Of a stretch of 64,000 nt of DNA, positions 3,646 through 61,858 are shown piece after piece. Every line of letters begins with the position of its first letter. Position 1 is the stretch's first letter. A model generated the notes under the pieces. That model had not been told where the DNA came from and made no database searches. It saw only the letters and a list, made by a program, of their open reading frames with translations. Where the stretch lies: the NCBI RefSeq assembly GCF_029264495.1, contig NZ_JARIBH010000076.1, positions 16,822-80,821 of the forward strand, written 5' to 3'. The translations under genes were made by a program, and so were the position numbers. This DNA is from Peptacetobacter sp. (GTDB lineage: Bacteria > Bacillota > Clostridia > Peptostreptococcales > Peptostreptococcaceae).

Positions 3646-3724
3646 TATAAACAACACCTCCTATTAAATTTTTAAAACGATTCGCCTCTGCTTTTCGTTG
3701 TATAATCTGGAGTACTTAATTCAG

Positions 3725-3790
3725 TATCATAGGCAGCCATATTACGGTGGCTGGTAGAGACTTTTGACCCATATTGTCAAAATTATATGA
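3725..3790 (-). ncRNA. Purine riboswitch aptamer (guanine class)
   Basis: Minus-strand order is TATAATTTTGA, CAATATGGGTCAAAAG, TCTCTACC, hairpin CAGCCA..TGGCTG, then CCTATGATA. This matches the xpt-type aptamer: the L2 AATATGG, J2/3 TCTACC and a J3/1 with C at the position that pairs with the ligand, pointing to guanine/hypoxanthine and not adenine. J2/3 is GTCTCTACC where xpt has GTTTCTACC, so position 48 appears to be C. The expression platform is not obvious. Confidence 0.85.
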
Positions 3791-3835
3791 TTACAATGAT
3801 TAATATATCCAATTTCATCTATTCTTCATTATGTT

Positions 3836-17103: not shown

Positions 17104-17173
17104 CATATTCTCTCTATTAACTTAGTATCCTAATTAATTATTATAATATAGATTACTTTTGTTTTTAAAAATT

Positions 17174-17276
17174 ATATATCAGCTTCCCTTCGCAAGCATT
17201 ATCTTGATCAGGTGTTTAGGGTTTGTAAGTTTTTGGCTTTCTCTCTCAGCTGACCATATTTCAGCGCCCCTAGCAT
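17174..17276 (-). ncRNA. TPP riboswitch (THI element)
   Basis: Minus-strand AGGGGCGCTGA, GTCAGCTGAGAGAGA, AACCC, ACCTGATCAAGATAATGCTTGCGAAGGGAAGC: the complete THI-box consensus (GGGGxGC, CTGAGA, ACCTGATCxxGATAATGCxxGCGxAGGGAA). It lies in front of thiC. Confidence 0.97.
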
Positions 17277-17310
17277 TTTATTTATTATTAAATCTTTTTT
17301 AGTTAATTTC

Positions 17311-38112: not shown

Positions 38113-38276
38113 TAACCAAGATAGCGCTCCACTCATTGTGACAGTGCATCGCATATTTTACGATGCCCCAGAACAGACTTTGGTGCAAAATCTGAACTTC
38201 GGCGACATTTCCTTTCAATACTAACAGCTGCCCTGCTATAGTTAGTACATACTAATAAATATCGCGCCTCTATCAT
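38113..38276 (-). ncRNA. Lysine riboswitch (L box)
   Basis: On the minus strand the conserved blocks follow in order: AGAGGCGCGA, AGGGCAGC, GAAAGG, GTCGCCGAAG, CTGGGGC, GTCACAATGAGTGGAGCGCTATCTTGG. The five-helix arrangement with the GCCGAAG and GGAGCGCTATCT motifs identifies the L box. The aptamer sits directly upstream of the attenuator. Confidence 0.95.
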
Positions 38277-38304
38277 TTTACGATAATATTAAGTTTATGC
38301 AATT

Positions 38305-43965: not shown

Positions 43966-45553
43966 ATGAGTTTAAGAAAAAAGATAGCTTCATTGGCTAT
44001 ATGCTCTGTTTTAATTCTAGGAAGTTCAAATATTACATTTGCTGATGGCTCTAGAGTTGTAACAATAGGTGTTAATAATAGTCCTCAACAAAGAGCTACT
44101 ATTTTAAAATACTTTGGAGTAAATGAAAATGAAGCTGTAATACTAGAAGTAAATAATCAAGAAGAAAGAAAATATTTAGAAGGTTTTGCTACAGAAGCAC
44201 AAATCGGTAAAAAAACATATTCTTGTGCATATGTTGAGCCAACAAAAGCTGGTAGTGGTATAAATGTTAAAACAGCCAACCTTACATGGTTAACATCTTC
44301 AATGGTAGCATCTACTTTATCAACAGCAGGTCTTACTGATGCTGATGTTGTAGTTGCATCTACATTTCCAGTTAGTGGTACAGGAGTAACACTATAATAC
44401 ATATTATATAGCTCCGTATGTAAAGAAATTTGCATAGGACACAACTTTAATTGCAGGTAATCCCTAAAGCTCTACACCACAGTATATCTGAAAAGAATAT
44501 ATGATGGTACGAAAGTAGAAAAAACGTAGAGATAAATATATGGTTAAATCCTAAGTATTTTTTAAATGGGTGTTCATGCAGGGAATATCCTAAGTCTTTT
44601 GATATGGATATCCTTCAACGACTATCCCTGAAATGGGAGTACATCACAAGCTATTGGTGATGGAAACAAGTTGCCCCTAACGTATATGGCGAGGGTGAAG
44701 AAATAGTCTTCTCACGTTCTGAAAAGAAGTGGTTATTAGAGAAATCGAAATAACATTATAAGTGTAGCGACTTATAGTAAAATTTGTTATCCTAAATGGT
44801 TAACATATGGCTTTAACTGGTATAATGAAAGCATTTGAAGATTCAACAGGAAAACCTCTTGATGAAAAGAAAAAAGAATTAGCAACTGAAGAATTAATAA
44901 TAACAGGTGATTTAGGAGAAGATATTGGTGCTGATAAAGCCACTGGTGTTGTAAATGATATAAAAACAGAAATCATTAAAAACAATACTAGTGACACTAC
45001 TCAAATAGCTGATACAATAAACAATATAACTAATAATTATAATATTTCTTTAACACCTGAACAAAAACAGCAATTAGAAGATTTTATGTCAAAAATTGCA
45101 AAGCAAAACTATGATTATGATAAAATGAAAAATACTTTAGATGGCATAAAAGATACAGTTAATGACAAATTAAATGAACTTGGAGAAGCTCCTAAGGAAG
45201 GATTTTTCGCTTCTATAAAAAATTGGTTCTCTAATTTATTCGGTGGAGATAAAAATAAGGATTTAGGTATATTAGAACATACAGATGATAGTATTTTAGG
45301 CAATAATGCTATCATTGATGCTACTGATGAAAAAGCTATAAATTTACCTTCTAGTGATGAAGTTGAAGGTATTTTTGCCAAAATAAAACATTGGTTTACA
45401 AATTTATTTGGCAATAATTCTGATATGAATAATGATAATTCATCAAATTCTAATAATAATTCTGATGAAAATAATATTGATCAATCAGTAGAGTCATTAG
45501 AAGAAAATTCCACTACAGATACAAATGTTCAGCCTGATTCTTCACAAAATTAA
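43966..45553 (+). CDS. Exported DUF1002 (YpuA-like) protein split by group I intron
   Basis: Two ORFs read as one gene. ORF 1 (43966-44397) has a signal peptide ending near TFADG, and ...NQEERKYLEGFATEAQIGKKTYS...GSGINVKTANLTWLTSSMVASTLSTAGLTDADVVVASTFPVSGTG. ORF 2 (44807-45553) begins ALTGIMKAFEDSTGKPLDEKKKELATEELIITGDLGEDIG. In the DUF1002 family these are contiguous (VSGTaALTGixKAyE), so an intron separates them between about 44387 and 44810. The second half ends with two amphipathic repeats IKNWFSNLFG and IKHWFTNLFG and an Asn/Ser/Asp-rich tail. ORF 2 has no ribosome site of its own, so splicing is needed. Spliced length about 387 residues, longer than YpuA (about 290). Function of the family is unknown; exported. 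RBS AAAAGGAGATTTAGT precedes the first ATG. Confidence 0.82.
44388..44809 (+). ncRNA. Group I intron (ribozyme) in DUF1002 gene
   Basis: The core is recognisable: AATTGCAGGTAATCCC (Q-like, P4), TCCTAAGTC...GATATGGAT, TTCAACGACTA (R, P7 5' strand), and GAAGAAATAGTCTTC (S, P7 3' strand), as in the Tetrahymena and bacterial group I introns. P1 is supported by GGAGT at the exon end pairing with GCTCC in the intron, with a U-G wobble at 44387. A hairpin TATAAGT/ACTTATA lies near the 3' end. The 3' end is uncertain: TAACATATGG with the terminal G at 44809 or 44810. No homing endonuclease or transposase ORF fits inside. The exact junction does not resolve cleanly in frame (see findings). Confidence 0.82.
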
Positions 45554-54571: not shown

Positions 54572-54594
54572 AAATGTACGGATTTATACTCATC

Positions 54595-54703
54595 TATCAA
54601 CTGTTTATTACTAGTTGCAGGATTTAGCACCGCTGTATATTAGTATATACCGGTTGCCGGGTTTCAAAGGGCCAGTCCCTCCACCTCTCTTGATAAGACG
54701 TTA
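54595..54703 (-). ncRNA. SAM-I riboswitch (S box)
   Basis: Minus-strand order TATCAAGAGAGGTGGAGGGACTGGCCC, GAAACCCGGCAACC, hairpin, GGTGCTAAATCCTGCAA, then TTGATA closing P1. This is the full S-box consensus ahead of metN, so methionine uptake is on when SAM is low. Confidence 0.97.
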
Positions 54704-61644: not shown

Positions 61645-61679
61645 AAAAAAGACATAGATGATAAAACATCTATATCTCT
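61645..61679 (-). terminator. Attenuator terminator of glycine riboswitch
   Basis: AGAGATATAGATG/CATCTATGTCT stem followed by TTTTTTTG on the minus strand. Its 5' arm overlaps the end of aptamer 2 (GGACAGAG), so glycine binding would block terminator formation and turn expression on. Confidence 0.82.
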
Positions 61680-61858
61680 GTCCTTTTGCCAGTTGGTTAT
61701 ATCCTCGTAGGCGATGAATTTAATCATTCTCTCCAAAGTATCGTCAGACTGCCCTCCTTTTGCCTGTCAGTTTCCACAGAAATAAGATGAAGTTTCTGCT
61801 TTGCTTCTTCGGCGCTTTAAAATTATTTATTAAAGTCTCTAATGCAATCCTCTTCCGA
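61676..61858 (-). ncRNA. Tandem glycine riboswitch (two gcvT-type aptamers)
   Basis: Minus strand: aptamer 1 GCGCCGAAGAAGCAAAG...AACTGACAGGCAAAAGGA, linker ATACTTTGGAGAG, aptamer 2 ATCGCCTACGAGG...AACTGGCAAAAGGACAGAG. Both carry the conserved CGCCxAxGxxG and CxGGCAAAAGGAC blocks of gcvT-type glycine aptamers. Aptamer 1 spans about 61740-61858, aptamer 2 about 61676-61738. Confidence 0.9.

Follow-up and report, generated by a model that had tools for sequence, protein, structure and literature searches.

A candidate stand-alone group I intron of IA2 type in a DUF1002 gene of Peptacetobacter, probably cut before an intronic U

The DUF1002 gene in the 64,000-nt stretch of Peptacetobacter DNA analyzed here (the window) is interrupted by what is most likely a stand-alone, ORF-less, IA2-type group I intron that removes itself from the transcript, the 5′ cut falling before U44387 (probability about 0.88). 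This reading is supported by a conserved and covarying intron core, the homology of the two exons, retention of the insertion site in a second genus, a join that is in frame only if the U is left out, and selection on the host gene. The end of the intron (UGG, as opposed to the CGG of group B IStrons) was counted against it.

Host gene and intron core

DUF1002 is a bacterial gene family of unknown function. The ORFs flanking the intron match its profile (PF06207) at positions 1-107 (2e-37) and 108-218 (2.3e-34), with no gap between the two matches, in agreement with an earlier sequence-only reading that had joined them into a single DUF1002 protein. Exon 1 (43966-44386, forward strand, as are all intron features below) ends in ACA GGA G, and exon 2 spans positions 44811-45553. 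Compared to the gene of Intestinibacter bartlettii, dN/dS is 0.18 for exon 1 and 0.23 for exon 2. Both exons are thus under purifying selection, and the value for exon 2 indicates that the downstream half of the gene is still in use.

The same reading had called the insert a group I intron, to be checked by an Rfam covariance search. When the region was searched alone, RF00028 matched positions 44393-44731 with 50.2 bits (E = 1.1e-11), a score barely above the gathering score of 50; a fast-filter Rfam scan of the whole window gave no RF00028 report for this intron. The core motifs listed in that reading are present in the sequence, and matches to MicX and FTX_4 in the intron-region search were under the cut-off. 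Across the window's genome, the DUF1002 intron is the top of four group I intron matches. The second of these (G000:C2:284-625; 47.9 bits) is possibly part of an IStron.

The group I core, P3 to P9 with the guanosine site in P7, is present in the predicted 424-nt intron (44387-44810, UAAC...AUGG). Its first helix, P1, consists of GGAG plus U (44383-44387) and the guide GCUCC (44411-44415); in the minimum free energy fold, GGAGU is paired with GCUCC and an internal loop follows. The P2 hairpin (44417-44436) retains 8/8 pairs in every relative shown, and two of these pairs carry two-sided changes. P3 (44442-44447 with 44668-44673) reads CAACUU/AAGUUG here and CAGACU/AGUCUG in a related intron in a DNA methylase gene. 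The P4-P6 domain with its P5 extensions (44452-44613) is followed by P7, in which GACUA (44620-44624) pairs with UAGUC (44704-44708) and which is invariant in 18 sequences, and P8 was drawn at 44675-44695. The hairpins P7.1 and P7.2 (44625-44662), together with an extended P9 domain (44713-44776) in which P9, P9.1, and P9.2 fold, are hallmarks of the IA2 type, an assignment based solely on P7.1/P7.2 and P9.1/P9.2. A 3′-terminal hairpin (44786-44804, GUUAUCC/GGUUAAC) occurs only in the DUF1002 introns, and its U-U mismatch in the window corresponds to a G-U pair in I. bartlettii.

Covariation was assessed in a MAFFT alignment of 18 related introns, using an 85-pair structure hand-drawn on the window sequence. 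Two-sided changes were found in 34 of the 85 pairs, a number reached by none of 500 shuffles (mean 18.0). Paired cells amounted to 82%, versus 33-51% in slid controls, although the former figure is biased upward because one of the aligned sequences served as the template for the structure. The two-sided changes in P7.1 (4/4 pairs with compensatory changes), P7.2 (3/6 pairs), P3, P5, and P6a are therefore better evidence than the paired-cell figure. P5a, P9, P9.1, and P9.2 score badly in some relatives, apparently as a result of a register shift in the alignment. The P1 target and guide also covary: GGAG/CUCC in the DUF1002 introns, GAGG/CCUC in those ahead of an acetyltransferase gene, AGG/CCU in a cysS intron, and CAG/CUG in the methylase intron.

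Relation to IStrons and other known introns

The DUF1002 intron shares several features with the group B IStrons BcISt1 and CsISt1 (PMC4227781), namely, the IA2 type, an exon ending in G before an intronic U, protein-coding hosts, and an internal loop after the U-G pair; like CsISt1, it is inserted after AG. Group B IStrons, however, carry IS607-type ORF A and/or B (TnpA/TnpB), end in CGG, and have an AU-rich inverted-repeat stem of 15-34 bp near the 3′ end. In contrast, the DUF1002 intron ends in AUGG (AAGG in I. bartlettii) and has only the 7-position hairpin at 44786-44804. No ORF of at least 60 aa was found within 44387-44810, so that the intron contains neither tnpA nor tnpB, as had been stated before, nor a homing endonuclease gene of the kind that defines HEG-bearing mobile introns. 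Since it has none of the IStron ORFs, no CGG end, no long AU-rich repeat, and no GAAC/GAAU motif after P9.2, the element was not filed as an IStron.

It is possible, though doubtful, that the element is instead a stripped group B IStron, that is, an intron-IS607 chimera that has lost its ORFs and inverted repeat while retaining splicing. The splice-site rule would be identical, ORF-less copies of BcISt1 are known, and cysS of a congener is interrupted by a TnpB-bearing relative with 69% identity. Against this stand the missing IStron parts and the closest relatives, in I. bartlettii and ahead of the acetyltransferase gene, which also lack IS parts. The methylase intron carries some 200 additional nt. 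The missing GAAC/GAAU motif is a weak point in this argument, in that the TnpB-bearing cysS relative lacks it too. On balance, a stand-alone intron is favored over a stripped IStron, and the element is best named a stand-alone relative of the group B IStrons. An IA2 intron of Turicibacter at GGAGG (PMC4227781), likened here by its published description rather than by sequence, is likewise a stand-alone relative of group B IStrons, with no IS part and a G-ending site.

The c-di-GMP allosteric ribozyme of Clostridioides difficile (Lee et al. 2010, reviewed in PMC3984707) is another group I intron from a related clostridium, but it is tied to a c-di-GMP aptamer, whereas the DUF1002 intron lies inside a coding sequence. 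An Rfam search found no c-di-GMP aptamer or other riboswitch near the DUF1002 gene or its leader. Elsewhere in the window, purine (3710-3810), TPP (17168-17281), lysine (38114-38280), SAM (54587-54699), and glycine (61674-61858) riboswitches were found on the reverse strand.

Splice sites and reading frame

Group B IStrons have a 5′ exon that ends in G, the intron itself beginning with U, as demonstrated for BcISt1 by RT-PCR (Tourasse et al. 2014, PMC4227781). The sequence-only reading had placed the 5′ cut after U44387 and the intron at 44388-44809. Based on the group B rule and on the in-frame joins obtained with the U excluded, the cut most likely lies after G44386, leaving U44387 intronic despite its place in the U-G pair of P1. 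The most likely bounds are thus 44387-44810, with both ends deduced from exon homology; a G is common to the two ends (GGA/G...G/GCT), such that a cut one base earlier would yield an identical mRNA. None of the 32 uninterrupted DUF1002 homologues among the matches listed has an extra residue between the two halves; only removal of U44387-G44810 (or the equivalent G44386-G44809) would reproduce this. The frame-restoring join that the earlier reading had also recognized, GGAG to CT, was correct, yielding VSGTG-ALTG as in the uninterrupted homologues. Judged by these joins, its "unresolved splice frame" is a one-base error in cut placement, a paradox that arose because the usual rule (exon 1 ends in U) had been applied.

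Joining G44386 to C44811 in silico leaves the protein open, while both U-retaining joins of the DUF1002 gene reach a stop within about 10 codons. With the U excluded, proteins read on at four insertion sites (DUF1002, cysS in congener G032, the methylase gene in G007, and a gene in G059). If the U is retained, stops interrupt DUF1002 (in the window and in I. bartlettii alike), cysS, and the methylase gene, and no open frame is left in the G059 gene.

With respect to the chemistry and to splicing in vivo, we infer removal by two guanosine-initiated transesterifications. The guide CUCC (44412-44415) would pair with GGAG (44383-44386) of exon 1, U44387-G44411 would form the splice-site wobble, and cleavage would occur between G44386 and U44387, as in group B IStrons. 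The 3′OH of G44386 would then attack after G44810, producing GGAG/CUUUAAC with the codons GGA-GCU and the protein junction VSGTG-ALTG. For I. bartlettii DSM 16795, the predicted spliced junction is GGAGCUUUAAC, not GGAGUCUUUAAC. The earlier suggestion that the guide pairs with both exons holds in part: after a G/U cut, A44410 and G44411 are free to pair with CU of exon 2 (a possible P10, with CUU in I. bartlettii), but this pairing is not general, as none was found in the cysS or methylase introns.

The canonical alternative, in which U44387 stays in exon 1 and the frameshift yields a truncated N-terminal half of DUF1002, appears very unlikely. Exon 1 ends in U in nearly all group I introns, and gene 1 of I. 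bartlettii is an N-terminal half stopping at the same codon; however, exon 2 has kept an open frame and evolves under purifying selection in two genera, a canonical cut would break cysS and a methylase as well, and splicing after G is established for BcISt1. About as unlikely is a loss of splicing with the halves made as two separate proteins. An ATG does lie by chance ahead of exon 2 (44807), but it lacks a clear ribosome-binding site upstream and is missing from I. bartlettii; moreover, the helices of the core are preserved and covary. As a start codon for exon 2, the ATG was rejected as accidental; I. bartlettii has ATAAAGGC / ATAAAGGCTTTAAC at this place.

Distribution, history, and implications

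DNA matches to the intron region (E ≤ 1e-4) were detected in 36 of 72 genomes of the family and, at E ≤ 1e-15, in 28 of 396 sampled genomes of the order, 26 of them in the same family; these counts are based on DNA similarity and are minimum values as far as diverged introns are concerned. The same intron occupies the same DUF1002 codon in I. bartlettii DSM 16795 (CP102273.1) and a sister isolate, with 90% identity to the window over 461 bases including exon flanks and 91% over the intron alone; the I. bartlettii host gene differs in lying within a Tn554-like element, beside a disrupted paralogue. Other relatives interrupt cysS, the methylase gene, or the gene in G059, or precede the acetyltransferase gene. 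Introns of Enterococcus, Staphylococcus, and Enterocloster phages match the core alone, at about 68-74%.

The cysS intron is TnpB-bearing and IStron-like (GAAGAAGG/UAAC...AACGG/AAAGG), and splicing after G would restore the protein, which intact copies from the window's genome and a congener match at 99% and 95% identity over 75 aa. The cysS gene is expected to be essential. In the methylase intron, exon 1 of a DNA cytosine-methylase-like gene ends in CAG, and the roughly 200 nt of extra sequence are on the 3′ side.

In the gene tree, the window's DUF1002 gene is sister to gene 2 of I. bartlettii (support 100/98), while DUF1002 of Peptacetobacter hominis groups with Clostridioides. The locus is syntenic with that of congener G032, where UDG is 87%, a 176-aa gene 88%, and DUF4300 60% identical, but DUF1002 just 54%. 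The most economical scenario would be replacement of the native DUF1002 gene by a transferred copy that held the intron. When the upstream region was compared with I. bartlettii by BLAST, the matches were mostly AT-rich noise. The possibility that the contig is contaminated was rejected on account of the neighboring UDG and 176-aa genes, syntenic and 87-88% identical within the genus. A separate recent homing event, considered because the intron is 91% identical and the exons 82% and 79%, is unneeded: the acetyltransferase introns share about 94% identity at a similar dS (0.69), so that 91% roughly fits co-inheritance.

Related introns were observed in the 5′ leader of a GNAT-like acetyltransferase gene (Pfam match just under the cut-off) in 13 genomes (e.g., L016:1486-1887), with 92-95% identity at dS of about 1 and no Rfam riboswitch found beside them. 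On excision, AGAGG would be joined to UGUCUAUUUUG and come to lie some 8 bases ahead of the start codon, such that splicing would assemble the ribosome-binding site of the gene.

A 12-13 kb element was also observed in a DUF1002 gene of I. bartlettii (L067:1954-16302) and of G071 (L069, L070), 2-3 bases from the intron position. It contains three consecutive recombinase-like genes, of which two match Phage_integrase weakly, below the Pfam cut-off, and was termed Tn554-like for this gene arrangement rather than by a membership test. Near its left end, the element carries its own full DUF1002 gene; in I. bartlettii, this carried copy holds the intron. That the intron shields DUF1002 from a transposon targeting the same VSGTG/ALTG codon pair seems improbable; if true, the rescue copy on the transposon would be safe from insertion, splicing would keep it functional, and the intron would confer target-site immunity.

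The frame paradox is settled by a published but little-known splice rule, to which the introns described here, one of them in cysS, would add new independent natural cases of exon G/intron U cleavage. The two side stories, namely, an intron and a site-specific transposon that both hit one codon of a gene, and a conserved intron in an acetyltransferase leader, are possibly the better ones. The DUF1002 intron would represent a chromosomal, IS-free group I intron retained in a protein gene across two genera.
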